Source: Gemmatimonadota bacterium (GTDB taxonomy: Bacteria; Gemmatimonadota; Gemmatimonadetes; Longimicrobiales; RSA9). From it: a DNA stretch of 33,911 nucleotides. The notes beneath the pieces were generated by a model. The model did no database searches, was not told the origin of the DNA, and worked only from the letters and a program-made list of their open reading frames with translations. Made by a program: the position numbers and the translations under genes. Shown in pieces: positions 2 through 33,618 of this stretch; within the stretch, counting starts at the first letter, position 1, and the number at the start of each line of letters is the position of its first letter. Location: contig JBDLIA010000032.1 of the NCBI GenBank assembly GCA_039715185.1, positions 1 through 33,911 of the forward strand, written 5' to 3'.

Positions 2-1129
2 GGCCAGCGCCAGGAGGCGGCCGACGCCGGCCGGCGCGGCGCCCGGAGCATGGAGCAGGCGGCCGACCTGCTGGACTCGGCGCGCGAGGCGATGACCGAG
101 GCCTGGCGCGACGACACCGCGCAGGCGCTGGAGCAGGCCACGCAGGACGCTCTGTCGCTGGCCGAAAGGGAGGCCGAGCTGCTGGAGCAGATGCAGCAGG
201 CGCGCGAGGACGGCAACGGCGCCTCCGAGCAGCAGATGGCGGACATGCGGGGCGAGCAGGCGGCGGTGCAGGAGGGCCTGGAATCGATCGCCCGCAATCT
301 GTCGGAGGCTTCCAGCCGGTCGGCGATGGTGGACAGGCAGGTGGGCGAAGCGCTGGGCGAGGCCATGCAGAACGTGCAGCAGAGCGCGAGCGCCATGGAG
401 GGCGGAGACGGCCGGCCCAGGTTGCCGATCCAGGAGACGCAGGCGGCGGTGGACGCCATGAACAACCTCGCGCTGTCGCTCCTGCAGAACGCCCAGCAGG
501 TGGGCCAGTCATCCGCCGGCACCGGCCTCGAGCAGGCTCTGCGGCAGCTCGCCGAGGCGGCCTCGCAGCAGGGCCGCGTCAACAACGAAGCGAGCGCGCT
601 ATCGCCCGAGGATCTGTCCGCCGCGGTGCTGTCGCGCCAGGCGCGGCGGCTGTCCGAGCGGCAGCAGGACATCGCCCGGCAACTCCAGGGCGCGGGGGAG
701 ACGCTCGGCGGGCAGGAAGAGACGCTGGGCGACGTCGAGGCCATGGCGGAGGAGGCCGAACGGCTCGCCCGCGAGCTCGCCGGCGGGCGCCTGGACCGGG
801 ACGTGCTGGCGCGGCAGGAGCGGCTGTTCCACCGCATGCTCGACGCCGGCCGCTCGCTGGAGAGGGAGGAGTTGGGCGACGAGCGCACCGCCGAAGCCGC
901 CGCGGCGTTCGAGCGCCTGGGCGCGGGCGCGCTCGATCCCGCGCTGACCGCGGGTGGAGTGCGCTACCCGACGCCGCCCGCGGCGCTGCTGCAAAAGGTG
1001 TCGCCGGGATACCGGCGGCTGATCCTCGACTACTTCGACCTCATCAACCGGCCCGACCGGGCCGCCAGGCCAAGATCGCCCGACACAGACCCCGACGACG
1101 CTCCCGCCACGGAGCGATCTCGCCGGTGA
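2..1129 (+). CDS. DUF4175-like coiled-coil protein, C-terminal part (runs off left edge)
   Basis: The frame is open back to base 2, so this is the last ~375 residues of a longer protein; the ATG at 50 is probably internal. The visible part is almost entirely alpha-helical and rich in Glu, Gln, Ala and Arg. The run LSRQARRLSERQQDIARQL and the later RQERLFHRMLDAGRSLERE resemble the C-terminal coiled-coil region of DUF4175-family envelope proteins of Bacteroidota and Gemmatimonadota (recognised by eye). The last ~45 residues (SPGYRRLILDYFDLINR) form a conserved-looking helical end followed by a disordered Arg/Asp/Pro tail. The stop overlaps the GTG start of the TPR gene by four bases, so the two are probably translationally coupled. 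Such proteins often sit in MoxR/DUF58/Bat-type clusters, which would lie to the left of the window (inference). The molecular role is unknown. Confidence 0.75.
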   Translation, partial: GQRQEAADAGRRGARSMEQAADLLDSAREAMTEAWRDDTAQALEQATQDALSLAEREAELLEQMQQAREDGNGASEQQMADMRGEQAAVQEGLESIARNLSEASSRSAMVDRQVGEALGEAMQNVQQSASAMEGGDGRPRLPIQETQAAVDAMNNLALSLLQNAQQVGQSSAGTGLEQALRQLAEAASQQGRVNNEASALSPEDLSAAVLSRQARRLSERQQDIARQLQGAGETLGGQEETLGDVEAMAEEAERLARELAGGRLDRDVLARQERLFHRMLDAGRSLEREELGDERTAEAAAAFERLGAGALDPALTAGGVRYPTPPAALLQKVSPGYRRLILDYFDLINRPDRAARPRSPDTDPDDAPATERSRR

Positions 1130-2910
1130 GGCGCCTGGCGTTGTGCCTGTTGGGCGCGGCCACGTTGAGCGCGGCGGCGCCGGCGCCCGCCCACGCGCAG
1201 GCGCGGCCCCTGAGCAGGGAGGCCCGCGTCCGCGTGGACGACATGCTGCGCGAGGCGACGAGGCAGCGCACGCGCGGCGACTACGCTGGCGCGCGGAGGA
1301 ACCTGGAGGAGGCGCTGGCGGCCGACCCCGCGTCCATCGGCGGCCTGCTCCTGCTCGAGGCCGTGCTCGTGGCGCAGGGCGAGCTGCCCGACCTGCTACC
1401 CTACGCGCGCGCCCTGCTGCGCACCGGCGAGCACCAGCAGATAGGCTACCAGGCGCTGCTGCGCACGCTGTCCGCGCTGGGGCGGAGCGCTGAGCTGCGC
1501 GACGCGGCCGAAGCCTGGCTCGCGCTGTCCCCCGACGACGCCGCGACCTACCGGGAGGTCGCCCGGGTGTGGGAGGAGCGGGGCGAGATCGACCAGGCGC
1601 TGCGCGTGCTGCGACGCGGCCGGGAAGCGCTCGGACGCGACGACGCGCTCGCGCTGGAGCTGGGCGTGACGTACGCGCGGCGGGGCGACGCCGACGCGGC
1701 GGTGCGCGAGTTGGACCGCGCGCTGGGCGAGTCGGCGAGCGCGCTTCTGGTCGTCAGGCGCTGGCTGGGCCGCGTGGAGGACGCCGCGGCTGTGGTGGAA
1801 CCGCTGGCCGCCCGGCTGCTCGCCACGCCCACCACACGGGAGCGTCGCAACGCCGCCTTCGAGCTGTCCGTCGACGCCGGCCTGGCGCGGCACGCGCGTG
1901 AGGCCGCGCTCGCCACGATCGACGGCGCCCCGGCGAGCGAGCGCGCGCGCTTCCTGGCGGAGGCGGCGCGCAGGGCCGGCGCGGCCGACCTCCTGGACCT
2001 GGAGTACTGGGCGTATCGCCGCCTGCTCGAGGATCGTCCCACCGCCGGTCGTGCGCTGGCCATCCGCAGCCGCCTCGCCGAGCTGGCGCTGGCGATGGGC
2101 GACACCGCGCGTGCGCGCCAGGATTATCTCGAAATAGAGCAGGAGGCGGCCGCCGGCTCGCCGCAGCGGCGGCGCGCGGCCGCGTTCGCCATCGAGTTGG
2201 CGGCCAGCGCCGGCGAGGCCAGCGCCGCCAGCCAGGCGCTGGAAGCATTTCGTCGGGATTTTCCGGACGCGCAGGAGTACGACCGCCTCGCCGGCGCCGT
2301 GGGCGACGCCATCCTCGTGGGCGGCGATCCCGGCGGGGCTCTCGCCGCCCTGGGCGACGCCGCCGGCCCCCTCGCCAACATGGTCCGGGGCAGGGCCCTG
2401 CTGGCCACCGGCGACGTGCCCGCGGCGCGCGAGGCGCTCATGGCCGCTGTGGCAGACCTGCGCGGGGTGGAGGCGACCCGCGCCATCGCGCTGCTGAGCC
2501 TGCTGGACCGGCTCTCGCCGGAGGCGACCGAGCGGCTCGCCGAGGCCGTGCAGGCGCTGGATCAGGGGCGCTCCGGGGTGGCCGTGGCGCGCCTGAGCGC
2601 GGACCTGGGCGCGGTGGCCGACAAGGACGCCGCGGCGCTGCTGGATTTCGCCGCGTCGGTGGCCGATCGGGCGTCCCTGCCGGTCTCCGCCGAGGCCGCC
2701 AGGCGAGCCCTCATCGAGCGCTACCCGGCCGCGCCGGAGAGCGCCGCCGCGCTGCTCGCGCTCGCCGAGTCCCTCTCGGCCAGCCCCTCCGGCCGGCTGG
2801 AGGCCCGGGTCCTGCTGGAGCGCCTGATCCTCGAGCACCCGCGCAGCGCGCTGTTGCCGCGAGCTCGACGCCTACTCAATCGCCTGGACGACGATCCGGC
2901 GAACACGTGA
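1126..2910 (+). CDS. Secreted tetratricopeptide-repeat protein
   Basis: 594 residues starting at a GTG within a GTGA overlap with the upstream gene. Residues 1-25 form a signal peptide (MRRLALCLLGAAT..., cleavage near AHAQA), so the protein is exported to the periplasm or envelope. The rest is a solenoid of helical pairs with TPR spacing, for example around ARVWEERGEIDQALRVLRRG and LELGVTYARRGDADAAVREL; the C-terminal part (ALLALAESL, then LLERLILEHPRSALLPRARR) resembles YbgF/BamD-type TPRs. No catalytic motif is visible. It lies between a DUF4175-like gene and a conserved secreted protein, overlapping both by four bases, so the three are probably co-expressed and may act as one envelope module (inference). 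A scaffold or adaptor role is the most that can be said. Confidence 0.85.
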   Translation: MRRLALCLLGAATLSAAAPAPAHAQARPLSREARVRVDDMLREATRQRTRGDYAGARRNLEEALAADPASIGGLLLLEAVLVAQGELPDLLPYARALLRTGEHQQIGYQALLRTLSALGRSAELRDAAEAWLALSPDDAATYREVARVWEERGEIDQALRVLRRGREALGRDDALALELGVTYARRGDADAAVRELDRALGESASALLVVRRWLGRVEDAAAVVEPLAARLLATPTTRERRNAAFELSVDAGLARHAREAALATIDGAPASERARFLAEAARRAGAADLLDLEYWAYRRLLEDRPTAGRALAIRSRLAELALAMGDTARARQDYLEIEQEAAAGSPQRRRAAAFAIELAASAGEASAASQALEAFRRDFPDAQEYDRLAGAVGDAILVGGDPGGALAALGDAAGPLANMVRGRALLATGDVPAAREALMAAVADLRGVEATRAIALLSLLDRLSPEATERLAEAVQALDQGRSGVAVARLSADLGAVADKDAAALLDFAASVADRASLPVSAEAARRALIERYPAAPESAAALLALAESLSASPSGRLEARVLLERLILEHPRSALLPRARRLLNRLDDDPANT

Positions 2911-4214
2911 TCGGCAGTAGAAGCATGAGAAGCCTCGCAGGTACCGTGTCCCGAACCTCCCGCGCGGTCGCGCTCGCCCTGATCGCCCTGTCGGGCGCGG
3001 CCGCCGGCGCGCGCGCGCAGCACGTGCTGGTGCCCATGGACGCTGCCCAGGCGAACCACCTGAAGGCCTACGGGCTGACCTATTGGTCGCTCGTGCAGGG
3101 CTTCGAGGCCGAGTGGCTGCTGAACTACCGCGGCGGCTCGTTCTTGCTGGAGGACCGCGCAGCGGTGCGCCGCGAGGCAGCGCTCAGGGGTGTGTCCATC
3201 GAGCGCGCGGGCGCGGCCGACGTGGCGCGCATCCGGGCCGAAGTGGCGGGCGCGAACATGGAGTCGGTGATCCTGGAGAAGGCGCCCGACATTGCCGTCT
3301 ACACGCCCGGATCGGCCGACCCCTGGGACGACGCCGTGACGCTCGCGCTGTCCTACGCCGAGATCCCCTACGACCGGATCTGGGACCCCGCGGTGCTGGA
3401 CGGTCGCCTGAACGACTACGACTGGCTGCACCTGCACCACGAGGACTTCACCGGCCAGTACTCCAAGTTCTACATCAACTACGCTGGCACCCCGTGGCTG
3501 CAGGACGACGTGCGCCGGAACGAAGAGGTGGCGCGCCGCTACGGCTTCCCGCACGTGCCCGCGGTGAAGAAGCAGGTCGCGGCCCGCATCCGCGACTACG
3601 TGGCGCAGGGAGGCTTCCTGTTCGCGATGTGCACCGCGACCGAAACGGTCGAGCTGGCGATGGCGGGTGGCGGGACCGACATCGCGGCGGCGTTCAGCGA
3701 CGGTTCGCCGATGGACCCGAACGCGTCGGCACGGATGCGCTGGGAGCTGGCCATGGCCTTCACCGGCGCGACCCTCCAGACCAACCCCGGGGTGAGCGCG
3801 TTCAGCGACATAGACGGCCACCAGGTCAACACGCCGTGGCGAGAGCCCCTGGGGGCGTTCTCGCTCTTCGACTTCAGCGCCAAGTTCGACCCGGTCCCGT
3901 CCATGCTGACGCAGAACCACGAAACGGTGATCCCCGACTACTACGGACTGACCACCTCGTTTCGGCTCGAGCGCCTGAAGCCGGGCGTGATCGTGCTCGC
4001 CGAGGAGGAGGGGTCGCCGTGGGCCAAGTACATCCACGGCACCTTCGGCGAGGGGACCTGGACGTACCTCGGTGGGCACGACCCGGAGGACCCGCAGCAC
4101 CAGATCGGTGACGCCCCCACGGACCTGGATCTGCACCGGCACTCGCCGGGCTATCGCCTGATCCTCAACAACGTTCTATTCCCGGCCGCGCGGAAGAAAA
4201 CGCTCAAGACCTGA
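2907..4214 (+). CDS. Conserved secreted protein (often labelled 'asparagine synthetase B')
   Basis: 435 residues from a GTG in a GTGA overlap with the TPR gene; an ATG at 2925 is an alternative start that keeps the signal peptide (AVALALIALSGAAAGARAQ). The mature part begins VLVPMDAAQANHLKAYGLTY and contains LLNYRGGSFLL, LEKAPDIAVYTP, WLHLHHEDFTGQY and GGFLFAMCTATE. These blocks match, from memory, a family common in Bacteroidota that databases call asparagine synthetase B. Nothing here supports that label: there is no N-terminal Cys nucleophile and no ATP-pyrophosphatase SGGxDS loop. The GGFLFAMC stretch could be the nucleophile elbow of a class I glutamine amidotransferase-like fold (inference). 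The conserved HLHHEDF segment hints at a metal or catalytic site. The function is unknown; it is probably an envelope partner of the two upstream genes. Confidence 0.8.
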   Translation: MIGSRSMRSLAGTVSRTSRAVALALIALSGAAAGARAQHVLVPMDAAQANHLKAYGLTYWSLVQGFEAEWLLNYRGGSFLLEDRAAVRREAALRGVSIERAGAADVARIRAEVAGANMESVILEKAPDIAVYTPGSADPWDDAVTLALSYAEIPYDRIWDPAVLDGRLNDYDWLHLHHEDFTGQYSKFYINYAGTPWLQDDVRRNEEVARRYGFPHVPAVKKQVAARIRDYVAQGGFLFAMCTATETVELAMAGGGTDIAAAFSDGSPMDPNASARMRWELAMAFTGATLQTNPGVSAFSDIDGHQVNTPWREPLGAFSLFDFSAKFDPVPSMLTQNHETVIPDYYGLTTSFRLERLKPGVIVLAEEEGSPWAKYIHGTFGEGTWTYLGGHDPEDPQHQIGDAPTDLDLHRHSPGYRLILNNVLFPAARKKTLKT

Positions 4215-4298: not shown

Positions 4299-5483
4299 AT
4301 GCCGCAGCGCTCGGAGCGCTATCTGTCGTTCCCCGACTACCCGCTGGCGGACGTCCCCGAGTTGAAGCGGCGGCTGCGCTCCGAAGGCCGGGACGTGATC
4401 GACCTGGGCGCCGGCGACGCCCGGCTCGCGCCGCCGCCCGAGGCCGTCCGCGCGCTGGCGGACGCCGCCGCGGAGCCGTCTATGAGCCGCTACGGCTTCC
4501 AGCTCGGCCTGCCCGCGTTCCGCGCGGCGGTCGCGGCGTGGATGCGGCGCCGGTTCGCGGTGACGTTGGATCCGTTCGCCGAGGTCCTGCCGCTGATCGG
4601 CTCGAAGGAGGGCATCGCGCACCTGGCCTTCGCGTACCTGGAACCCGGCGACGCGACGATCCTCCCCGACCCCGGATACCAGCCCTACCGGGGCGGCACG
4701 CTGCTGGCCGGGGCGGAGCCGGTGGCGCTGCCTCTGCGACCCGAGAACGACTTCCTGCTGCCGTTCCGCGACGTGGACTCGGACACGTGCGCGCGGGCGA
4801 AGATCCTGTACCTGAACTACCCCAACAATCCAACCGCCGCGATAGCGCCGCGCGCGTACCTGGAGGACGCCGTGGCGTTCTGCCACGAGCACGACATCCT
4901 GCTCGTCTACGACAACGCCTACAGCGAGATCGCCTTTGACGGCTACGTTCCACCGAGCATCCTGGAGATCGACGGCGCGCGCGAGACGGCAGTCGAATTC
5001 CACTCCATGTCCAAGACGTACAACATGACCGGGTGGCGCCTGGGCTGGGCGGCCGGGGCGCGCGAGGCCGTGTCCGCGCTCGCGCGCGTCAAGACGTTCG
5101 TGGACACGGGCGTGTTCCTCGCGGTGCAGGCGGCGGGGGCGGCCACGCTGGCGGACTCCGCGGACTGGGCCGCGGCCAACGTGGACGAGTTTCGCGCGCG
5201 CCGCGACGCGGCGGCCGCGGCCCTGGCTGGCGCCGGTTTCGACGTGAGCGTGCCGCGCGCGACCATGTACTTGTGGGTGCCCGTGCCGGGCGGCGAGCCG
5301 TCGGAGGCGTTCGCGCGCAGGGCGCTGCTGGAAGAGGCCGTGGTGGTGATGCCGGGCGCCGCGCTGGGCGCGGGTGGCGAGGGCTTCTTCCGGATCGCCC
5401 TCACGGAGGGCGCCGCGCGCCTCGCCGAGGCCGGCGAGCGACTGGGCCGCGTCGCGCACGTGGTCGTTCAGCGCGGGGGGTGA
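4299..5483 (+). CDS. dapL: LL-diaminopimelate aminotransferase (class I/II fold)
   Basis: 394-residue PLP-dependent aminotransferase of fold type I, full length for the family. Blocks typical of DapL are present: VIDLGAGD near the N-terminus, VLPLIGSKEGIAHLAFAY, LPDPGYQPYRGGTLLAGAEP, LNYPNNPTAA, YDNAYSEIAFDGY and SMSKTYNMTGWRLG, in which Lys239 is the predicted Schiff-base lysine. Family knowledge: DapL converts tetrahydrodipicolinate directly to LL-diaminopimelate with glutamate as donor, bypassing the acylated DapC/D/E route to lysine and peptidoglycan. The pattern fits the DapL2-like branch better than plain aspartate aminotransferase, but substrate cannot be settled by eye. It stands alone, 84 bases after the previous gene and 81 before the next. 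No strong Shine-Dalgarno sequence precedes the chosen ATG. Confidence 0.85.
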   Translation: MPQRSERYLSFPDYPLADVPELKRRLRSEGRDVIDLGAGDARLAPPPEAVRALADAAAEPSMSRYGFQLGLPAFRAAVAAWMRRRFAVTLDPFAEVLPLIGSKEGIAHLAFAYLEPGDATILPDPGYQPYRGGTLLAGAEPVALPLRPENDFLLPFRDVDSDTCARAKILYLNYPNNPTAAIAPRAYLEDAVAFCHEHDILLVYDNAYSEIAFDGYVPPSILEIDGARETAVEFHSMSKTYNMTGWRLGWAAGAREAVSALARVKTFVDTGVFLAVQAAGAATLADSADWAAANVDEFRARRDAAAAALAGAGFDVSVPRATMYLWVPVPGGEPSEAFARRALLEEAVVVMPGAALGAGGEGFFRIALTEGAARLAEAGERLGRVAHVVVQRGG

Positions 5484-5564: not shown

Positions 5565-6422
5565 ATGTCGCGCGCCACGCTCACCCCACCTCGACGTCCG
5601 CCCGACGGGCCCGTCCAGCCGCCTCCCGATTCGGATCGGGCGGCCCGCGCGGCCCTGCGACCGTCCGCGGCCGAGCGGCGCGACGTGCGCGAGCGGCGCG
5701 TGTTCCGGGCGGCGCTGGTGGCCTCCGTTCTCGCGCACGTCGCGATCCTGCTGCTGATCCGCTTATCGCCCGGGTTCCGGCCCGTGCCGACTGGCCCCGT
5801 GCCCGCCTCCGAGCGAGACCCGGGACTGCGCCTCCTGCAATTCGAGGCGGTGGAGGGTGAGGTGGATGAGCTCGCGCGCCCCGACGACCCCGAGGCGACC
5901 CCCAGGCCGTCCGTGCGTCCCGCGCCACCATCGCCGGAGCCTCCGGGCGAGCCCGCAGGAGAGCAGCTCACGGCGGTGGATCGCCTGCGCCCCGGCGCCG
6001 TCCGTGATCCTCGCCTGTGGCGCGACCACGGTCCCGCCTACCTGCTGCCGCCGGAAACGCCCGAGGAGGCCATCCTGCGAGGCCTCCTGCCGCGGCTCGC
6101 GCTGCTGAACGACTCGATAGCCGCGGAGCTGGAGGCCGACCGGCGCGCGAGCGACTGGACGTTCACGGATTCGCAGGGGCGTCGCTGGGGCATTTCCTCG
6201 GAGGGCATCCACCTGGGCACGATCACCCTTCCGCCGGTCGCGTTCAACGCCTCGGAGGAGAGGCGGCAGGAGATAGAGGCCGCGCTGCGCGAATGGTCGA
6301 CGATCCGCGACCAGGCCTACCGAGCCGGGCTGAACGAGGAGTTCGAGGACCGCGTCCGGGCGATCCGCGAGCGCGTGGAGCGGGAGCGCGGCGAGCGCTC
6401 CGAGGGTGGAGAGTCGAAGTGA
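5565..6422 (+). CDS. TonB-like single-pass envelope protein of unknown function
   Basis: 285 residues. A cytoplasmic Arg/Pro-rich head (1-47) precedes one transmembrane segment (about 48-66, VASVLAHVAILLLIRL), whose Ser-x-x-x-His pattern recalls the N-terminal anchor of TonB. A Pro/Glu-rich periplasmic linker follows (about 105-135). The C-terminal half (about 140-285) has the hydrophobic block AYLLPPETPEEAILRGLLPR, a possible beta segment (WTFTDSQGRRWGISSEGIHL) and a long charged helix. It lacks a recognisable TonB C-terminal domain, so TonB function is not claimed. Its stop overlaps the GTG of a BON-domain gene, which in turn overlaps a tiny membrane-protein gene, giving a tightly coupled trio. 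Not recognised as a named family. Confidence 0.7.
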   Translation: MSRATLTPPRRPPDGPVQPPPDSDRAARAALRPSAAERRDVRERRVFRAALVASVLAHVAILLLIRLSPGFRPVPTGPVPASERDPGLRLLQFEAVEGEVDELARPDDPEATPRPSVRPAPPSPEPPGEPAGEQLTAVDRLRPGAVRDPRLWRDHGPAYLLPPETPEEAILRGLLPRLALLNDSIAAELEADRRASDWTFTDSQGRRWGISSEGIHLGTITLPPVAFNASEERRQEIEAALREWSTIRDQAYRAGLNEEFEDRVRAIRERVERERGERSEGGESK

Positions 6423-6978: not shown

Positions 6979-9675
6979 ATGACCCAGCCGCTCCCTCCAC
7001 AGTACGACCCCAAGACCTTCGAGGCCGACCTGTACTCCACGTGGGAGGAGCGCGGGTACTTCGGCGCCGCGCCCGCCGACGCGGCCACGCGGGACCCGTA
7101 CGTGATCGTCATACCGCCGCCCAACGTCACGTCGGTGCTGCACATGGGACACGGCCTGAACAACACCATCCAGGACGTGCTCGTCCGCTGGCGCCGCATG
7201 CAGGGCAGGCTGGCGCTGTGGGTGCCCGGCACCGACCACGCCGGCATCGCGACCCAGAACGTCGTCGAGCGCCAACTCGCCGACGAGGGCAAGTCGCGGC
7301 ACGAAGTGGGCCGGGAGGCGTTCGAGGCGCGCGTCTGGGATTGGGTGGGCCAGACCGGCCCGCGCATCCTGGGGCAACTGAAGGCGATCGGCGCGTCGTG
7401 CGACTGGACGCGCACCGCGTTCACCCTGGACGAGGGGCTGTCCCGGGCGGTGCGCGAGGTGTTCGTGCGCCTCCACGAGAAGGGCCTCGTCTACCGCGGC
7501 CGCTACATCATCAACTGGTGCCCGCGCTGCCTGACCGCGCTTTCGAACGAGGAGGCCGAGGCGCACGACACCGACGGACACCTGTGGCACCTGCGCTACC
7601 CGTTCCCGGCGGGCACCGACGCGCCCGGGTTGCCGACGCTCGCCGACGGCCGCCCCTACCTGGTGGTGGCCACCACCAGGCCGGAGACGATGCTGGGCGA
7701 CACCGCGGTCGCGGTGCACCCCGCGGACGGCCGTTACGCGGCCGTCGTGGGCGCCGAGGTGGAGCTGCCGCTCACGGGCCGGCGCATCCCCGTGGTCGGC
7801 GACGAGTGGGCGGACCCCGAGTTCGGCAGCGGCGCGGTGAAGGTGACGCCGGCGCACGATCCCAACGACTTCGATGTGGGCCAGCGGCACGGCCTGGAGG
7901 CGCTCGAAGTCCTCACCGAGGCCGGCGTAACCAACGACAACGCCCCCGAGGAATTCCGCGGGCTGGACCGCTTCGAGGCGCGCGACAGGGTGGTGTCTGC
8001 ACTGCGCGAGCAGGGGCTGCTGGACGCCGTAGAGGACCACGCGCACTCGGTGCCGCGCTGCTACCGCTGCGGTACCGTGGTCGAGCCGCGCCTGTCGCTG
8101 CAGTGGTTCGTGCGCATGAAGCCCCTCGCGGAGCCCGCGTTGGCTGCCTCGCGCGAAGGCCGCGTGCGCTTCACGCCGGCGCGCTGGAAGAAGGTCTACG
8201 AGCACTGGCTGGAGAACATCCGCGACTGGTGCATCTCCAGACAACTGTGGTGGGGGCACAGGATCCCGGTGTGGTACTGCGCCTGCGGCGAGATGGTGGT
8301 GGCGCGCCAGGACCCCGACGCGTGTCCGGCGTGCGGCTCCGCGGAGCTGGAGCAGGACGCGGACGTGCTGGACACCTGGTTCAGCTCCTGGCTGTGGCCG
8401 TTCTCGACCCTGGGCTGGCCCGACGATACCGATGACCTGCGCGCGTTCTACCCCACCCACACGCTCAGCACCGCGCCCGAGATCCTGTTCTTCTGGGTGG
8501 CGCGGATGATCATGGCTGGCCTGGAGTTCATGGGCGAAGAGCCGTTCAGCGACGTCTACCTGCACGCCACGGTGCGGGACCAGCTCGGGCGCAAGATGTC
8601 CAAGTCGCTCGGCAACGGCATCGACCCGCTGGAGGTGGTGGAGCTGTACGGCGCGGACGCGCTGCGCTACACCGTCGTGGCCGCGGCCGGAGTGGGTACA
8701 GACGTGCAACTGAACCCCGACGACCTGGAGGGTTCGTTCTCTCCGGGGCGGAACTTCGCCAACAAGCTCTGGAACATGGGGCGGTTCGCGCTCATGAACC
8801 TGGCGGAGCGCGACATCCGTCCGCTCGAGGAGGCGCGCGGCGACCTGGAGCTCGCCGACCGCTGGATCCTGTCGCGGCTCGCCGAGGCGAGCGCCGAAGC
8901 CACCCGCAACCTGGAGGAGTTCCGCTTCCACGACTACGCCTCCACCACCTACCACTTCCTGTGGGGCGAGGTCGCGGACTGGTACATCGAGCTCATCAAG
9001 CCCCGGCTGGACGACGAGGCGGAGGGCGCTTCGCGCGCCGCCGCTCTGGCGACGCTGGTGCACGTGCTCGACGCGGGGCTGCGCCTGCTCCACCCCATCA
9101 TGCCCTTCGTGACCGAGGCGCTGTGGCTCAACCTACCGCTGCCCGCGGGCGATCGGCCCGAGTCGCTGGTGGTGGCGCCCTGGCCCGAACGCGAGCCCCG
9201 CGACACCGACGCCGAGGAGCAGTTGGGCGCGCTGATCGAGCTCATCGGCTCCATCCGGACAGCGCGCGCAGAGTACAACGTGCCGCCCTCCCAGCCGGTC
9301 GCGGTGCACCTCACCGACGCCTCGGCGGGGCTGCGCGCGGCGCTCGAGGGGGAGCCCCGCGCGCTGGCGCGACTGGCGCGCGCCGAGCCCGCCGACGGCG
9401 GCCTCTCGGGGGCCGGAGCGCACGACGTCCTGAAGGACGGCACGGGCGTGTTCGTGCCGCTCGCCGACGTCATCGACCTGGGCAGGGAGCGCAGCCGCCT
9501 GAGCGCCGAGCTGGAGCGCATCGGCGGACAACGCCGGGCGGCCGAAGGGCGCCTGGCCAACGAGTCGTTCACCGGGCGCGCGCCGGCGGACGTGGTGGAA
9601 CGCGAGCGGGAGAAGGCCGTCAGCTTCCGCGAGCAGGAGGAGCGCCTGTCCGAGAAGCTGCAGGCCCTGGGATGA
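6979..9675 (+). CDS. valS: Valyl-tRNA synthetase
   Basis: 898 residues, a normal length. This cytoplasmic class I aminoacyl-tRNA synthetase charges tRNA-Val with valine. The HIGH signature appears as HMGH (55-58) after PPPNVTSVL; the KMSKS loop is at 539-543 (GRKMSKSLGNG). The editing (CP1) domain carries VVATTRPETMLGDTAVAV, and RDWCISRQLWWGHRIPVWYC marks the core, followed by a CxC...CxxC zinc-ribbon-like insert (CACGEMV...CPACG). The C-terminus (about 830-898) is the Arg/Glu-rich coiled-coil tRNA-binding arm typical of ValRS. An AGGAG lies three bases before the ATG, rather close. The stop overlaps the ATG of the next gene (ATGA), so a lipoprotein, selA and gmhB may be co-transcribed with it. 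Confidence 0.98.
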   Translation: MTQPLPPQYDPKTFEADLYSTWEERGYFGAAPADAATRDPYVIVIPPPNVTSVLHMGHGLNNTIQDVLVRWRRMQGRLALWVPGTDHAGIATQNVVERQLADEGKSRHEVGREAFEARVWDWVGQTGPRILGQLKAIGASCDWTRTAFTLDEGLSRAVREVFVRLHEKGLVYRGRYIINWCPRCLTALSNEEAEAHDTDGHLWHLRYPFPAGTDAPGLPTLADGRPYLVVATTRPETMLGDTAVAVHPADGRYAAVVGAEVELPLTGRRIPVVGDEWADPEFGSGAVKVTPAHDPNDFDVGQRHGLEALEVLTEAGVTNDNAPEEFRGLDRFEARDRVVSALREQGLLDAVEDHAHSVPRCYRCGTVVEPRLSLQWFVRMKPLAEPALAASREGRVRFTPARWKKVYEHWLENIRDWCISRQLWWGHRIPVWYCACGEMVVARQDPDACPACGSAELEQDADVLDTWFSSWLWPFSTLGWPDDTDDLRAFYPTHTLSTAPEILFFWVARMIMAGLEFMGEEPFSDVYLHATVRDQLGRKMSKSLGNGIDPLEVVELYGADALRYTVVAAAGVGTDVQLNPDDLEGSFSPGRNFANKLWNMGRFALMNLAERDIRPLEEARGDLELADRWILSRLAEASAEATRNLEEFRFHDYASTTYHFLWGEVADWYIELIKPRLDDEAEGASRAAALATLVHVLDAGLRLLHPIMPFVTEALWLNLPLPAGDRPESLVVAPWPEREPRDTDAEEQLGALIELIGSIRTARAEYNVPPSQPVAVHLTDASAGLRAALEGEPRALARLARAEPADGGLSGAGAHDVLKDGTGVFVPLADVIDLGRERSRLSAELERIGGQRRAAEGRLANESFTGRAPADVVEREREKAVSFREQEERLSEKLQALG

Positions 9676-11150
9676 GGGCCGGCGAGAAGGCACCCGCGGC
9701 GCGATCGGTCGCGCGCCGGCCGTACCGCCGCCTCGCCCTGCTGGCCGGCGCGCTGGCGTCCGCGTGCGCCACCGCCAATCCGCCGCCGGGAGGCGAGCAG
9801 GACCGGCTGCCCCCGCGCGTGATCGAGGTGTCGCCCGAGCCCGGCTCGTCGCTCCGGGATCTCCGCTCGGCCGTCGTCTTCAAGTTCGACGAGCGCATCA
9901 GCGAGCGCGGCATCGAGGGGTCGATTCTGGTTTCACCCAGGGCGGGCGAGTTCAAGGTGGACAAGGGCGGGAGCGAGCTGCGCGTGCGCCAGGACGGCGG
10001 CTGGTCACCCGGGGTGGTCTACCGCGTCACCCTGCTGCCGGGCGTGGCCGATCTCTTCGGCAACGCCCGCGCGGAGGCCGTCGAGCTGGTCTTCAGCACG
10101 GGACCCGAGGTGCCGGCCACGGTGCTCGGCGGGGTGGTGAGCGACCGCATGACCGGCCAACCGGTCGCGGCCGCGGCGGTCGCCGCGACGCCGGTGGGGG
10201 ACACCGTGCCCTACGTGGCGATGACCGACGAGCAGGGGTTCTTCGCGATCCGTTTTCTGCCCGAGGGCGCCTACGACCTGCGCGCGCTGCGCGACGGCGA
10301 CGGCGACTGGACCGTCGACGCTTTCGAGCCCCGCGACGAGCGCGCGGTCCAGGTGGCCTCGGGGGACACCCTCGTGGAGACGCTGGCTCTGCTGGCGCCG
10401 GACACGTCGTCCGCCATCCTCGTGCGCGCCGAGTTCGTCGACAGCTTCACGCTGCGGCTGGACTTCGACGACGCGCTGGACCCGCAGGACGCGCAGCCCG
10501 ATCTGATCGCGCGCGTGGTCGACGAGAGCACGCGCGCCGAGATCGGCTCCACCGCGTTCGCGCCGCACGCGCTCCAGGAGTTGCTCACCCGTCAGGTCGA
10601 GGACGCCCGCGCGGCGGCGGACTCGGCGGCGGCCCCCGACTCGGCGGCCGTTCCCGATTCCGCGGCGGCGGCCGACAGCGCGGCCGCGCCGGAGCCGGAG
10701 GACGATCCCGGCGCGGGCCTGCTGGGCCGGGAGGCCGGCGAGGACGCGGCGGGCGCCGACTCGGCAGATGCCGACGTCACCGCGGCGGCGCCCGACTCCG
10801 CCGGCGCCGTGGACCGCGCGGCTGCGGGGCCCGGCGCCGGACGCGGCGGGATCCCCCTCGGCGCAGGCCTGGGGGCGCCTCCGCCCCCGATCGAGGTGCC
10901 GCGCGGGCCCGCGGGCGAGCCGCTGCCCACCCGCGAATGGTACCTGCGGCTGGCTGCTCCGCTGACCCCGGGGGCGGCCTACGCGGTCTCCGTGGCGGGC
11001 GTGCGCAACGTGCACGGACTGGGCGGCGGCGCGGGCGACGCGCGGTTCAGCGCCCCCGTACCCCAGCCCGAGGAAGACGCGGCCGAAACGGACGCCGGCG
11101 ACGACACGGGCGGGAATGGCGTTACGGGCGACCCGCCGCCCGAGCCATGA
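9672..11150 (+). CDS. Ig-like (Big_5) domain putative lipoprotein with Ser/Ala/Asp-rich linker
   Basis: 492 residues from the ATG in the ATGA overlap with valS. The N-terminus (Arg-rich, then LALLAGALASAC) looks like a lipoprotein signal with Cys32 as a possible acylation site, though the lipobox is weak. Residues about 45-125 (LPPRVIEVSPEPGSSLRDL ... FKFDERIS ... YRVTLLPGVADLFGNARAE) match the bacterial Ig-like domain 5 pattern. Residues about 135-210 form a carboxypeptidase-regulatory-like beta-sandwich (GVVSDRMTGQPVAAAAV ... GFFAIRFLPEGAYDLRAL). A low-complexity stretch with repeated DSAA units (about 310-345) and a Pro/Gly-rich segment lead to a last beta-rich part (WYLRLAAPLTPGAAYAVSV). 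Probably an envelope structural or assembly factor; no enzymatic motif. Linkage to tRNA synthesis genes looks like operon convenience. Confidence 0.8.
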   Translation: MRAGEKAPAARSVARRPYRRLALLAGALASACATANPPPGGEQDRLPPRVIEVSPEPGSSLRDLRSAVVFKFDERISERGIEGSILVSPRAGEFKVDKGGSELRVRQDGGWSPGVVYRVTLLPGVADLFGNARAEAVELVFSTGPEVPATVLGGVVSDRMTGQPVAAAAVAATPVGDTVPYVAMTDEQGFFAIRFLPEGAYDLRALRDGDGDWTVDAFEPRDERAVQVASGDTLVETLALLAPDTSSAILVRAEFVDSFTLRLDFDDALDPQDAQPDLIARVVDESTRAEIGSTAFAPHALQELLTRQVEDARAAADSAAAPDSAAVPDSAAAADSAAAPEPEDDPGAGLLGREAGEDAAGADSADADVTAAAPDSAGAVDRAAAGPGAGRGGIPLGAGLGAPPPPIEVPRGPAGEPLPTREWYLRLAAPLTPGAAYAVSVAGVRNVHGLGGGAGDARFSAPVPQPEEDAAETDAGDDTGGNGVTGDPPPEP

Positions 11151-12538
11151 GCGACCCCCGCCGGGCCATCCCGGCGGTCGATCGCCTGCTGGACGGGCCC
11201 GCGTTCGAGCCGCTCCTGGAAGACACGCCGCGCGACCTCGTCCGGTCGGCGCTGCGGGCCATCCAGGATGAGGTGAGAGCCGCCCTGGGCGACGGCAGCC
11301 TCGCCGCCGCGCCGTCCGACGCGTGGTACGTGACGCGCGCCCGAGAGCTCATCGAGCTCGAGACCCGCCCGTCCCTCAGGCCCGTCATCAACGCGACCGG
11401 AGTGGTGCTGCACACCAACCTGGGTCGCGCCCCGCTGTCGGCCCGGGCGGCGGCCGCCGCGTACGCGGCTTCGCTGGGCTACACCAACCTGGAGTACGAC
11501 CTGGAGCGCGGCGCGCGCGGCTCCCGGCACGTCCACGCGGTGCGGCTGCTGCGCGAGCTGACGGGCGCCGAGGACGCCGTCGTGGTGAACAACAACGCGG
11601 CCGCGCTGGTGCTCGCGCTGCGCGCCCTGGCGGGCGGGGGCGAGGTCATCGTCAGCCGCGGCGAGCTGATCGAGATCGGCGGCTCGTTCCGCATCCCGGA
11701 GGTGATGGAGGCCGGGGGCGCGCGCCTCGTGGAGGTCGGCACCACCAATCGCACACACGAGCGAGACTACCGCGCCGCCATCGGCCCGGACACGCGGGCG
11801 TTGGTCAAGGTGCACCGCAGCAACTTCCGGGTGAGCGGTTTCACCGCCGAGGTGGACGTCGCCGCGCTGGCGGCCCTCGCGCGCGAGGCGGGCGTGCCGC
11901 TGATAGTCGACCTCGGCTCGGGGATCCTGTCCGATCCCACCCCCCTCGGCTTGCCCGCCGAGCCCACCGCGCGGCAGGTGGTCGAGGCCGGCGCGGACCT
12001 CGTCACGATGAGCGGCGACAAGGCCCTGGGCGGCCCGCAGGCGGGCATCGCCGTCGGCCGCGCGGCGTTGGTGGAAGCGCTGCGGCGCGACCCGCTGGCG
12101 CGCGCGGTGCGCGTAGGCAAGCTGACCCTCGCCGCCCTGGAGGCGACCCTCGCGGCGCACCGCGACCCGCGCGCCGCGCGCACGCTCGTGCCCGTCCTGG
12201 CGATGCTTTCGGCCCCGCCCGAGGAGCTCGCGCGCCGCGCCGCCGCGCTCGCCGCGGAGCTGACGGACGCACCCGCGGACGTGGAAGTGGTGGAGGGCGA
12301 GTCCGCCGTGGGAGGGGGCGCCTTCCCCGAAGCCGCGCTGCCCACGCACCTCGTCGCGGTCGCGCCGAGCGGGGGTTCGGCGGCCGCGCTCGAGGCCCGC
12401 CTGCGCGCTCACGACCCCCCGGTGATCGCCATGGTCCGGGACGACCGCGTCGTGCTGGACCTGCGCACGGTGCCCGACGGGGCGACGGGTACGCTCGTGG
12501 ACGCGTTGCGCTGGGCGCTCGCGAGTACCGAAACCTGA
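11147..12538 (+). CDS. selA: L-seryl-tRNA(Sec) selenium transferase
   Basis: 463 residues, full length for SelA. It is a PLP enzyme that converts Ser-tRNA(Sec) to Sec-tRNA(Sec) with selenophosphate. Family blocks are clear: RPVINATGVVLHTNLGRAPL, YTNLEYDLERGARGSRH, VVVNNNAAALVLALRAL, KVHRSNFRVSGFT, LIVDLGSGIL and TMSGDKALGGPQAG, with Lys292 as the predicted PLP lysine (equivalent to Lys295 of E. coli). The start is the ATG in an ATGA overlap with the lipoprotein gene; the long upstream extension in this frame is an Arg-rich shadow. The stop shares a TGATG with gmhB. selB, selC and selD are not in the window, so selenoproteins must be encoded elsewhere if the pathway works. Confidence 0.96.
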   Translation: MSDPRRAIPAVDRLLDGPAFEPLLEDTPRDLVRSALRAIQDEVRAALGDGSLAAAPSDAWYVTRARELIELETRPSLRPVINATGVVLHTNLGRAPLSARAAAAAYAASLGYTNLEYDLERGARGSRHVHAVRLLRELTGAEDAVVVNNNAAALVLALRALAGGGEVIVSRGELIEIGGSFRIPEVMEAGGARLVEVGTTNRTHERDYRAAIGPDTRALVKVHRSNFRVSGFTAEVDVAALAALAREAGVPLIVDLGSGILSDPTPLGLPAEPTARQVVEAGADLVTMSGDKALGGPQAGIAVGRAALVEALRRDPLARAVRVGKLTLAALEATLAAHRDPRAARTLVPVLAMLSAPPEELARRAAALAAELTDAPADVEVVEGESAVGGGAFPEAALPTHLVAVAPSGGSAAALEARLRAHDPPVIAMVRDDRVVLDLRTVPDGATGTLVDALRWALASTET

Positions 12539-26389: not shown

Positions 26390-28996
26390 TCACCGACGCT
26401 CGAGACCGATCCTCTCCAGCAGGACGTCGAAGCGCGCATCGGACCGGAGGGGGTCGAACGCCGGGTTCACGTCGAGGTGCACCAACGCGACGTCGCGCTC
26501 CTCGTACGCTCGGTCCAGCCACGCGAACGCCCGGTCCCGATCGCCCAGGGCGCCGAACACGATCGCGATGTGGGTCCCCCCTACGTAGGCGGCGTCGGCC
26601 CGCTGCTCGAGCTCGGCGACCAATAGCTCGGCGTCGGCGCGCCGGCCGGCCCGGGCGTAGGCGTACCCGAGCGCGCCCAGAGCCATCGGCAGGCGGTCGG
26701 AGAGCCTGGTCGCCTCCTCGCAAGCCTCCGCCGCGCTGTCATACAGTCCCTTGCCGGCCAACGCCTGGCACAGCAGCCAGTGGCCTTGCCAGAAGTCCGG
26801 GAAGAACTGGAGACCCGCCCGGCTCAGCTCGATCGCCTGGTCGAAGTCGCGCATGTAGTTGAGGACCACTACCGGTCTGAACGAGGCGAACGGGACCATC
26901 CTGTCCAGGGAGGCGCCCCTTTCGACAACGGCCAGCGCTTCGGCGTAGCGGCCCGCGACCGATAGGACCTCGGCCAGGAAGTAGCCTGCGCGGCTCGGGT
27001 TGAGCTCGATGGCCCGTCGCGCTAGCCGCTCCGACTCGTCCCAGTCCCACTCCCAGTAGAATTGGACCGCGGCCAGCACATTGTGCGCGTGGGCGTTCGT
27101 GCTGTCGAAGCGCAGGGCGGCTCTCGCCAGCTCTGTAACGCGGGGCATGACTTCGGACGGCCGCCCCAGCCCGAAGAAGGCCGCGGAACCATAGGCTTCC
27201 GCCAGGGCAGCGTAGGCGGGCGCGAAGGTGGAGTCGATTTCGATCGCCTGACGAAAGTACCTCCGCGCCAACTCGAACCCCTCCCTGGACCTCAGCTCCA
27301 CGTTGAACTGACCCAGGGCGAAGGCGTCGTAGGCTTCGGGGTCCACCGGTCCGCCCGCCGCGAGACGAGCGCCTTCGTCCCGGGTCAGCTCGATGCCCAG
27401 CTCCTCGGCGATCGAAAGCGCGACCTCGCTGCTGACCTCGTACACGCCTCCCAGGGGGCTGCGGTAGCTCGCCGTCCAGAGCTGCCGTTCCGGTGACGCC
27501 TCAACGAGCGTCGCCGTGATCGCGATGCTGTCGCCGTCCATGATCACGGAACCCTCCACGAGGGCGTCGACCTCGAGCTCGCGCGCTATCTCGGGGATGG
27601 GCGCGTCCGTGTTCCGATAGCGCGCGACCGAGGTGCGCGAGATCACGCCGAGGGATCCGATCTTGCCGAGCTCGGCGATCAGCGCGTCGTGCACCCCGTT
27701 GACGATGTGCTGGTGCTCGGCGTCGCCGGTGAGATTGGTCAGCGGCAGCACGGCGAGCCTCTCTATACGGGGACCTTGTCCGCTCGGGGGGCGGGTCGAG
27801 AGCCAGATGCCGCCGGCCAGCACGGCTACGACGGCCGGGACGGCGACTGTGGGCCGGCGTAGCGCGCGCCAGACCGCGGCGCCGCTCGGGACCCGGCGCC
27901 CACGCCCGACGGCGGGCGGCGGCTCCCGGATCGCCACGTCCGGGGATCCTCCCCGCCGCAAGGACCGCAGGTCGTCGAGCAGGTCCTCGGCGCTCCGGTA
28001 GCGGCCATCCGGCGTCTTGCACAGGAGCTTGTCGACGACCCACGCCACATCTTCCGGCAGATCGCTCCGCAGCGAGGACGGCGGGTCGGGGTCAGCGTGC
28101 AGGATCTTCTGGATCAGCGACGCCTGATCGTCCTCCCAGAAAGGTCTGACGCCGGTGAGCATCTCGTACAGCACGACGCCCAGCGACCACAGGTCCGTGC
28201 GCCCATCCAGTCGCGCCCCCGTCGCCTGCTCGGGACTCATGTACGCCACGGTGCCCGGTCGAACCCCTTCCTGCGTGACGTCTTCTCCCGCCGCCTTGGC
28301 CACGCCGAAGTCCAGGAGCTTGACCTCGCCGCGCTCGGTCAGCAGCACGTTCGACGGCTTCACGTCGCGGTGGACGATCTCGCTGTCGTGAGCTTCGTGG
28401 AGCCCCGCGGCGATCTGCGTCGCGATCTCGACCACCCTCTCTACGGGAAGCGGGCCCCGGCGGATGAGCTCGTCGAGGGTCTCGCCTTCGTACAGGGCGA
28501 ACGCCATGTAGAGCTGCCCCTCCTCGGTTTCGTCGGTCTCGTAGAGGGTCGCGATGTTGGGGTGATCGAGCGCGGCGATGGCCCTGGCCTCCGACATGAA
28601 GCGCCGCTTCGCCTGGCGTCCGACTCCCAGGTAGGGCGGGAGCACCTTGAGCGCCACGCGTCGGCCCAGGCGCGTGTCCTCGGCCAGGTAGACCACCCCC
28701 ATGCCACCCCGGCCGATCTCCCGGACCAGGCGGAAGGGCCCTACCTGTCGGCCCTCGACATCGTTGGGCGCCAAGGCTTCGAGGGCTTCGTCCAGCAGGC
28801 TCGCGGGCTCGTCGAAGCGAGGCCCGGCCCGGGCGTGCGCCTCGAGCAACGCTTCGACGTCAGACCGCAGCGCGTGGTCATCGGCGCACGCCGAGGCGAG
28901 AAAGGCGGGTCGCTCGTCGGGCGGGGTCTCCAGCGCGGCCCCCAGTACCGCGTCGATCCTCCGCCAGCGCTCCGGATCCAGGTCGCTAGGCTTCAT
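26390..28996 (-). CDS. Transmembrane Ser/Thr protein kinase with TolB-like and TPR sensor region
   Basis: 868 residues. Residues about 87-345 are a complete Hanks-type kinase: glycine loop GRGGMGVVY, Lys117 in VALKVL, HRDVKPSN (Asp211), DFG (229-231) and SPEQ. One transmembrane helix at about 383-400 (VAVPAVVAVLAGGIWLS) separates it from an extracytoplasmic part. That part opens with a TolB-N/FlgO-like domain (IERLAVLPLTNLTGDAEHQH ... LVEGSVIMDGDSIAITATLV), followed by TPR repeats (about 560-860). The N-terminal ~80 residues are a helical extension typical of kinases paired with ECF sigma factors. The start lies inside the 3' end of the sigma gene (11-base overlap), with GGGAG just before it, so the two are coupled. 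It probably senses an envelope signal and phosphorylates cytoplasmic partners, perhaps the sigma factor. Confidence 0.95.
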   Translation of the reverse strand: MKPSDLDPERWRRIDAVLGAALETPPDERPAFLASACADDHALRSDVEALLEAHARAGPRFDEPASLLDEALEALAPNDVEGRQVGPFRLVREIGRGGMGVVYLAEDTRLGRRVALKVLPPYLGVGRQAKRRFMSEARAIAALDHPNIATLYETDETEEGQLYMAFALYEGETLDELIRRGPLPVERVVEIATQIAAGLHEAHDSEIVHRDVKPSNVLLTERGEVKLLDFGVAKAAGEDVTQEGVRPGTVAYMSPEQATGARLDGRTDLWSLGVVLYEMLTGVRPFWEDDQASLIQKILHADPDPPSSLRSDLPEDVAWVVDKLLCKTPDGRYRSAEDLLDDLRSLRRGGSPDVAIREPPPAVGRGRRVPSGAAVWRALRRPTVAVPAVVAVLAGGIWLSTRPPSGQGPRIERLAVLPLTNLTGDAEHQHIVNGVHDALIAELGKIGSLGVISRTSVARYRNTDAPIPEIARELEVDALVEGSVIMDGDSIAITATLVEASPERQLWTASYRSPLGGVYEVSSEVALSIAEELGIELTRDEGARLAAGGPVDPEAYDAFALGQFNVELRSREGFELARRYFRQAIEIDSTFAPAYAALAEAYGSAAFFGLGRPSEVMPRVTELARAALRFDSTNAHAHNVLAAVQFYWEWDWDESERLARRAIELNPSRAGYFLAEVLSVAGRYAEALAVVERGASLDRMVPFASFRPVVVLNYMRDFDQAIELSRAGLQFFPDFWQGHWLLCQALAGKGLYDSAAEACEEATRLSDRLPMALGALGYAYARAGRRADAELLVAELEQRADAAYVGGTHIAIVFGALGDRDRAFAWLDRAYEERDVALVHLDVNPAFDPLRSDARFDVLLERIGLERR

Positions 28997-30323: not shown

Positions 30324-30357
30324 GGTCCGGGCCGGTCACGAGGGGCCGACCCGGACC
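30324..30357. terminator. Hairpin between convergent genes (possible terminator)
   Basis: GGTCCGGG (30324-30331) pairs perfectly with CCCGGACC (30350-30357), with an 18-base loop and no T-tract. It spans the stop of the receptor gene and follows the stop of the secreted-protein gene. Weak evidence. Confidence 0.3.
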
Positions 30358-33038: not shown

Positions 33039-33105
33039 GGCCGCCCTCCTTCGATTGGGTCTCTCAGCCGGCACCGTCAGGTCGCCTCGTGAGACTCCTT
33101 CATGA

Positions 33106-33131
33106 AATATAGAGAGTCCGAGGCCCGTTCC
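33106..33131 (-). promoter_or_regulatory. Candidate promoter for the TonB-dependent receptor
   Basis: On the minus strand GGAAC (33131-33127) is followed after 15 bases by TATATT (33111-33106), about 70 bases before the GTG start. GGAAC is an ECF-type -35 sequence, whereas TATATT suits the housekeeping -10, so the assignment is uncertain. Confidence 0.25.
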
Positions 33132-33189
33132 TCCACATCTACGTCGCGGGAGGGTCGCGCGCTGCGCCCGGCGCAGGCATGTTGGTCCG

Positions 33190-33618
33190 ATGACTGAGCT
33201 GCTGCTGTGGCCGGTCCCGGCCATCGGCGCTCTGCTGGTCGCGGCCCTCGCATTCTGGGCGGGTCGCATGGTCGGTCGCGCTCAGCCCGGCGAGTCCACG
33301 ACCGGCGAGCCTGACGGGGGTGGGGTGGCGGGCGGCGCGGACAAGGCGGCCGCCGGCTTACCGCAGGATCATCCCCTCCGGGACGAGATGCTGGGGATCA
33401 TGCGCTCGCTGGAGAAGGCGGGCGGCCAGTCCGTCATTCTGGAGGTCGCGGCCAGGGTGCTCGGCAGCTCGAGGGTACGCGTGGAGGAGGCGGCGGAGGC
33501 CTTGTCCGCGCTGGGACTCGTCTCGGTAAACTCCCCGTTGCGTCGTCCTAACTACGTGCAGATCACCGAGCGGGGACGTCGGTGGCTGGAGTCGTTCGGA
33601 TCCGTCGGAGGCGATTGA
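33190..33618 (+). CDS. Membrane-anchored winged-helix-like small protein
   Basis: 142 residues. One N-terminal transmembrane helix (about 5-27, LLWPVPAIGALLVAALAFWA) is followed by a Gly/Ala-rich linker and a compact helical C-terminal domain (about 58-140: DEMLGIMRSLEKAG, VILEVAARVLGSS, RVEEAAEALSALGLV, NYVQITERGRRWLESF). The order helix-helix-helix then a beta hairpin ending in ITERGRRWL is what a winged helix looks like in MarR/PadR-type proteins. A membrane-tethered transcription factor or a protein-interaction wing are both possible. It is divergent from the receptor gene. No clear ribosome site was seen. Not a recognised named family. Confidence 0.65.
   Translation: MTELLLWPVPAIGALLVAALAFWAGRMVGRAQPGESTTGEPDGGGVAGGADKAAAGLPQDHPLRDEMLGIMRSLEKAGGQSVILEVAARVLGSSRVRVEEAAEALSALGLVSVNSPLRRPNYVQITERGRRWLESFGSVGGD

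Follow-up and report, generated by a model that had tools for sequence, protein, structure and literature searches.

Gene layout at the locus

We analysed a stretch of 33,911 nucleotides (the window), which is the whole of contig C32 (GenBank JBDLIA010000032.1) of a 3.66-Mb draft genome of a Gemmatimonadota bacterium. At its left end three genes lie in a row on the forward strand; they encode the end of a DUF4175-like protein, a TPR protein and what we call the third protein, whose family is unnamed and which a first-pass annotation had quoted under the label "asparagine synthetase B". Each gene shares the four bases GTGA with the next, as that annotation had described (Table 1). As the window is the entire contig, the first open reading frame (ORF) is open at its 5′ end. 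We present evidence that the third protein probably forms a functional pair with the DUF4175-like protein and that it carries a predicted domain resembling class I glutamine amidotransferases (GATases).

The TPR repeats of the second ORF were matched by Pfam (TPR_2, E 1.2e-7; TPR_19, E 8.8e-6). The N-termini of the second and third ORFs both hold hydrophobic stretches by hydropathy count, in line with the signal peptides proposed for them earlier.

Table 1. Features of the cluster in the window and of its counterpart on contig C88 of the same genome
Feature	Position	Strand	Basis
DUF4175-like protein, C-terminal third (375 aa), cut by contig end	2–1129	+	ORF list, own profile
GTGA 4-base stop/start overlap, DUF4175-like/TPR	1126–1129	+	
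TPR protein, 594 aa, signal-peptide-like N-terminus	1126–2910	+	Pfam, hydropathy
GTGA 4-base stop/start overlap, TPR/third gene	2907–2910	+	
Third gene, 435-aa protein of unnamed family	2907–4214	+	
Signal-peptide-like N-terminus of third protein, residues 1–37	2907–3017	+	
N-terminal alpha/beta part, residues 39–123	3021–3275	+	AlphaFold2 model
Class I GATase-like (flavodoxin-like) part, residues 124–431	3276–4199	+	Model, fold searches
HHED, residues 177–180, loop after strand 173–176	3435–3446	+	Topology; lies in search pattern
Cys242, between strand 237–241 and helix 243–254, nucleophile-elbow position	3630–3632	+	Topology
H391-D392-P393-E394, just past strand 383–388, candidate His/Glu partners	4077–4088	+	Topology
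DUF4159 gene before DUF4175-like part	L130:10376–11116 (contig C88)		Pfam E 3.8e-63
DUF4175-like N-terminal part, ~700 residues	L130:11136–13259 (end of contig C88)		Own profile

Spread and apparent export of the third protein

A scan of 84,980 species returned at least 594 matches to the third protein, and the best 80 of these, 48–72% identical to it, are the named relatives used below. Their titles cover Gemmatimonadota, Bacteroidota, Neomarinimicrobiota, Cloacimonadota, KSB1, Latescibacterota, Eisenbacteria, WOR-3, Calditrichaeota, Kapabacteria, Ignavibacteria and Delongbacteria, plus unnamed bacteria, and between phyla the protein is about 50% identical. One copy was found in each of 38 of the 61 close genomes; in Gemmatimonadota, its own phylum, 218 of 249 genomes had a match, nearly always a single one, and in Bacteroidota 108 of 148 sampled genomes did. 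Two genomes of family f8 in the own phylum (G133 and G203) hold divergent relatives (2 and 3 matches, best E ~1e-79) and no DUF4175-like gene, and possibly represent a sub-family with another role.

We aligned 89 members, 78 rows of which are named relatives gathered by the patterns W[LI]HLHHED and FTGQYSKF; two loci (L098 and L109), with stops in the matched span, were excluded from this alignment (A2). The motifs HLHHEDFTGQY and GGFLFAMC, pointed out in the first-pass annotation, are present in the third protein and conserved in its relatives. Since the search patterns cover residues 173–188, conservation there is biased, and the invariance of HLHHED, itself a search pattern, is partly built in; other positions are not directly affected.

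None of the 89 members matched a Pfam or NCBIfam family convincingly (two single Pfam matches lay near E 0.005), and searches of the window's third protein against Pfam, NCBIfam and PHROGs returned nothing useful. A single NCBIfam match to acetoacetate-CoA ligase (E 0.061) and the best PDB sequence match, a major head protein (E 0.0079), were taken as chance. A profile of the third protein found no useful match among PDB sequences, two pattern matches in IMG/VR yielded no relative, and PLSDB plasmids gave no match. Searches of the literature by title and start of abstract found no paper treating the family.

The third protein is apparently exported, as judged by a hydropathy count rather than by a signal-peptide predictor. 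Leaders were compared over 81 loci (the 80 named relatives and the window), of which four without the anchor motif were set aside. A clear hydrophobic stretch was seen in 66 of the remaining 77 leaders and a lipobox in none of the 77. A loose twin-arginine pattern matched 12 of them, eight convincingly and all eight from Gemmatimonadota (L043–L046, L049–L052), where they replace Sec-like leaders; no leader of this type precedes the hydrophobic stretch in the DUF4159 protein of either L043 or L045. Twin-arginine leaders would fit the export of a folded protein. Proteins that load a cofactor before export often take this route, and the leaders may be read as a hint of a cofactor, not as proof of one.

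Predicted fold and candidate active site

The third protein was modelled with AlphaFold2 on the 89 aligned sequences; an earlier model, built from 22 close sequences, was of low quality (predicted local distance difference test score, pLDDT, 65.6) and was not used. The model has a pLDDT of 91.1 and a predicted template-modelling score of 0.88. For residues 124–431 it predicts an amidotransferase-like fold, as the first-pass annotation had suggested from the motifs. The structural matches by VIA-align include a GH42 chain (5xb7_C, Z 13.1, root-mean-square deviation (rmsd) 3.3, 183 residues aligned), a ThuA-like chain (1t0b_A, Z 12.6, rmsd 3.4, 192 aligned) and a PdxT-type chain (2iss_E, Z 11.8, rmsd 2.9, 173 of 184 aligned; 1q7r also Z 11.8). 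The best Foldseek match, 2gk3 (E 1.4e-6), has the same kind of fold.

The elements of the model run in the sequence of a class I GATase-like domain: strand 129–132, a helix, strands 156–158 and 173–176, the HHED loop, helices, strand 237–241, Cys242, helix 243–254, hairpin 372–388 and H391-D-P-E394. The HHED loop lies at what we take to be the position of the oxyanion loop in class I GATases, enzymes in which a Cys and a His-x-Glu pair are catalytic. When we checked the invariance of Cys and His residues, Cys242 and several His were identical in all 89 members; the invariant polar residues of active-site character include C242, H391, E394, H51, H338, D392 and D395. From topology and invariance we infer Cys242 as a candidate nucleophile, and the third protein is likely an enzyme.

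These results leave the quoted label untenable. None of the 89 members matched a model of asparagine synthetase or of class II GATases (Pfam and NCBIfam, E 0.01), the leader is of the export type, and the predicted fold is class I GATase-like and differs from that of asparagine synthetase B. The first-pass annotation had itself argued that the protein is not this enzyme, and the label it quoted, the one point in favour, could not be confirmed here; the probability that the protein is an asparagine synthetase B, true or divergent, is negligible.

The complete gene cluster and its order in relatives

The first ORF matched a profile built from the ~1100-residue DUF4175-like neighbours of relatives over positions 755–1099 of 1103 (E 2.5e-95); thus the name "DUF4175-like" given to it in the first pass is right for this C-terminal third. 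The remaining part (profile positions 23–726) is found at the end of contig C88 of this genome, preceded by a DUF4159 gene and, before that, by rsmI. As the ends of C32 and C88 share no overlap and ~30 profile positions are missing between them, we infer their adjacency, which is supported by the same gene order in relatives. The complete unit would then be DUF4159, DUF4175-like, TPR and third gene. Two more DUF4159 genes lie on other contigs of this genome, at C58:11000–11596 (E 7.0e-52) and C126:2358–2933 (E 7.3e-46).

The Pfam model of DUF4175 (PF13779) gave no match over its cut-off for either the window fragment or the C88 part. Against relatives it scored 31.3 bits in L142 (cut-off 27.3), 22.7 bits in L105, which is below the cut-off, and nothing in L040. 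The DUF4175-like proteins of relatives, ~1100 aa long, are predicted to have N-terminal membrane helices and a long coiled-coil-like region.

Neighbourhoods were compared by profiles built from neighbours over the 80 named loci, many of which run off the end of a contig; some of their TPR matches are fragments. The full four-gene order was found in 20 of the 80, among them loci from Gemmatimonadota, Neomarinimicrobiota, KSB1, Eisenbacteria and others; TPR lies directly upstream of the third gene in 40 and DUF4175-like upstream in 30. Four-base overlaps recur at TPR/third gene (28/50), DUF4175/TPR (19/38) and DUF4159/DUF4175 (17/27), where the count of 50 loci includes the window and counts one contig twice (L038 and L120). 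Since the order, and often the overlap too, recurs in relatives, the arrangement is more than chance.

Partial clusters were also seen, with DUF4159 and DUF4175 in L146 and L147 and DUF4175 and TPR in the Cloacimonadota loci L142 and L144. In Bacteroidota the third gene is mostly alone and the DUF4175-like gene lies elsewhere, in several loci followed by a HATPase gene, ybeY and mnmG; Pfam confirmed the first two in L139, and the other assignments were made by eye. One Salinivirgaceae locus (L150:2652–9554) has TPR, DUF4292, M23 peptidase and DUF4175-like genes in one row, a hint towards peptidoglycan.

The view of the three genes as one coupled unit thus holds as to their coupling; the unit has at least four genes, with DUF4159 on the left, and its order is not universal across relatives. 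On the left, where the first-pass annotation had proposed a survey for MoxR, DUF58 and Bat genes, lie rsmI and then DUF4159 instead. Among the 80 named loci, of which many are truncated, L063 is the one case with MoxR and DUF58 on the same strand; L075 has a weak MoxR-like match (3e-12) on the opposite strand, and in two Balneolaceae a BatA-like VWA gene is second after DUF4175 (L141 by Pfam, L152 by eye).

A DUF4159 match at 1e-62 or better, a cut-off chosen after the values had been seen, is present in 36 of the 38 close genomes with the third gene and in none of the 23 without it; weaker DUF4159 matches are present in 12 of these 23.

Co-occurrence of the third gene and the DUF4175-like gene

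Among the 148 Bacteroidota genomes, the third gene and the DUF4175-like gene are both present in the same 108, and the only difference among the 40 lacking genomes is a partial DUF4175 match in G376 (positions 276–511, ~236 positions, in a 723-aa frame). The two genes lie on separate contigs in 75 of the 108 genomes and share a contig in 33, where they are always more than 10 kb apart; the closest pair, seen once (G385), is separated by 11 kb and the next by at least 22 kb. The gene order is thus not kept in all relatives, and the tie in Bacteroidota is one of co-occurrence, as the genes are not neighbours there. For the same reason, a single deletion does not explain their shared loss.

An RpoB tree of 100 genomes was built from all 40 without the two genes and from 60 of the 108 with them; the remaining 48 were left out. 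Presence changes six times on the best tree and at least five times on well-supported branches. DUF4175 goes along in all five independent pairs (p 0.0625), or in a mean of 4.6 of 5 if G376 is counted as present.

In the own phylum, 211 of 249 genomes have both genes, 30 neither, seven the third gene only and one DUF4175 only, when DUF4175 is counted at E 1e-75 or better, a cut-off that was set after seeing the values and was used because weaker DUF4175 paralogues exist. Six of the eight disagreeing genomes are drafts of at least 240 contigs in which the third gene is ordinary or absent; G133 and G203, with their divergent third genes, make up the rest. Of 31 Fibrobacteres–Chlorobi–Bacteroidetes (FCB) genomes picked for having the third gene, 30 have the DUF4175-like gene; five of the 31 supplied sequences to the DUF4175 profile and two are also among the 148. 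We regard the third protein and the DUF4175-like protein as a well-supported functional pair, though independent losses are few.

Interpretation and rival explanations

We lean, by a narrow preference, towards reading the third protein as an exported class I GATase-like partner of the DUF4175-like protein that is not an asparagine synthetase and is likely an enzyme. It would combine an alpha/beta part at the N-terminus with a domain resembling class I amidotransferases, and would work outside the cytoplasm together with the ~1100-residue DUF4175-like protein, which may be its membrane anchor or scaffold. The family of the third protein is conserved across Gemmatimonadota, Bacteroidota and allied phyla. 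Where the operon is intact, the TPR protein and the DUF4159 protein would belong to the same machine. The likeliest action of the third protein would be that of a cysteine-dependent hydrolase or transferase with Cys242 as nucleophile and His391 and Glu394 as partners, possibly with an amide or ester bond of the envelope as its target. A bolder version, possible although on balance improbable, makes it the catalytic Cys-dependent subunit of an undescribed DUF4175-based envelope machine, ancestral to the Bacteroidota–Gemmatimonadota superphylum and lost whole in several lineages; if true, an envelope enzyme would span a whole superphylum and have no model in Pfam or NCBIfam.

Several observations weigh against our preferred reading, and those on sequence and fold also speak for a rather doubtful alternative, a non-catalytic GATase-like domain which would bind a glycan or protein partner in the periplasm as a structural part of the DUF4175 machine. 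Profile comparison by hhalign gave no significant match to class I GATases (prob 0.2), ThuA (prob 3) or DUF4159 (prob 18); since sequence profiles thus show no link to these families, the third protein is tied to GATases by its predicted fold only. The GATase signature GxCxGxQ is missing, with MCTATE in its place, and the Foldseek overlaps are loose (2gk3, TM-scores 0.35/0.55, rmsd 9.4). Many of the fold matches, some of the best included, are parts of GH42 enzymes or other glycosidases and phosphorylases at the GATase-like part, which are not known to be catalytic, and in GH42 enzymes the equivalent domain serves for trimerisation. The C242-H391-E394 triad is a candidate, placed by invariance and by the order of secondary structure. 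On the other hand, seven residues identical in 89 of 89 members over several phyla (C242, H391, E394, H51, H338, D392 and D395) seem to go beyond structural need. The high density of invariant His, Glu and Asp could also suit a metal-dependent exported enzyme of the same fold, with some of H51, H175, H177, H178, E179, D180, H338 and H391 as ligands and Cys242 as a structural residue or ligand, and the eight Gemmatimonadota members with twin-arginine leaders would fit it. We hold this to be quite unlikely, as 69 of the 77 leaders are not of a clear twin-arginine type, residues 175–180 lie inside a search pattern which biases their invariance, and the 50 fold matches listed point to no metalloenzyme in particular.

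The pairing has its own weak points. Only five independent losses are available (p 0.0625), and 30 of the 40 lacking Bacteroidota genomes form one clade, all of 1.8–3.0 Mb, so that shared loss may follow lifestyle. In the own phylum eight of the 249 genomes disagree, the cut-off was set in hindsight, and two genomes without the third gene have paralogue matches (1.2e-59 and 6.3e-61) close to those of two with it (1.2e-57 and 1.3e-65); moreover, shared loss is weak evidence there because the genes are adjacent. Perhaps, then, two functionally unrelated genes were lost with a shared lifestyle, and the Gemmatimonadota operon is a loose neighbourhood beside the housekeeping genes rsmI and valS. 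We consider this unlikely, since none of the 148 genomes keeps one full gene alone (the match in G376 being partial), the genes were also lost in the larger genomes G302 (3.9 Mb), G333 (5.1 Mb) and G426 (5.5 Mb), and order and overlaps are conserved in several phyla.

The third-protein family is widespread, yet the Pfam and NCBIfam copies used contain no model of it, and its name is misleading by the account of the first-pass annotation. A partner known by co-occurrence gives the third protein a testable role. As strains of Flavobacterium, Pedobacter and Mucilaginibacter have both the third gene and the DUF4175-like gene, this role can be tested in cultured bacteria.

Other genes in the window

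In Gemmatimonadota, valS usually lies downstream of the third gene, and it follows directly in many relatives, unlike in the window. Here valS (6979–9675) is separated from the third gene by an LL-diaminopimelate aminotransferase-like gene at 4299–5483 (+), which is below the NCBIfam cut-offs, and a gene of no assigned family at 5565–6422. A 924-aa open frame at 9764–12538 (+) matches selenocysteine synthase SelA over residues 541–903 (Pfam E 2.2e-136), with an N-terminal SelA domain at residues 466–505, and its true start is probably near 11150; therefore the organism may use selenocysteine. On the reverse strand lie a serine/threonine protein kinase with TPR repeats (26390–28996) and an outer-membrane TonB-receptor-like protein with a carboxypeptidase-regulatory domain (30336–33269).

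Comparison with known systems

Asparagine synthetase B has the quoted label in common with the third protein; the two share no Pfam or NCBIfam domain and differ in predicted fold. In a report on Bizionia, "an asparagine synthetase B", which may or may not be of the third-protein family, is among the transcripts lowered without MliR (PMC9478572). The AsnB of Tannerella forsythia is a 605-aa protein (PMC6120980), which we take as a true AsnB.

DUF4159 (PF13709), the first gene of the same operon, shares with the third protein a short stretch around YL/VxxGGFL, whereas the profile match is not significant; one solved structure (4i66) is related to DUF4159 by sequence. As for DUF4175 (PF13779), AdvA of Acinetobacter baumannii is described with such a domain (PMC7481262). 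Two DUF4175-like proteins of relatives (L142 over the cut-off, L105 under it) show a partial Pfam match with this family; the DUF4175-like proteins differ in being ~1100 aa long with a long coiled-coil-like part.

ThuA-like proteins (PF06283) share with the third protein the predicted fold and, towards the C-terminal end, an invariant Gly-His, but no Pfam or profile match links the two, and no ThuA match was found in the window's own genome. Class I GATases (PdxT/YaaE, the subunits of anthranilate and aminodeoxychorismate synthases and GMP synthase subunit A) share with the third protein the predicted fold, a Cys between strand and helix, and a His and a Glu after the last strand pair. Unlike them, the third protein has no PF00117 match and no GxCxGxQ, and it carries an extra N-terminal part, an export-type leader and ~110 residues between helix 243–254 and strand 362–366.

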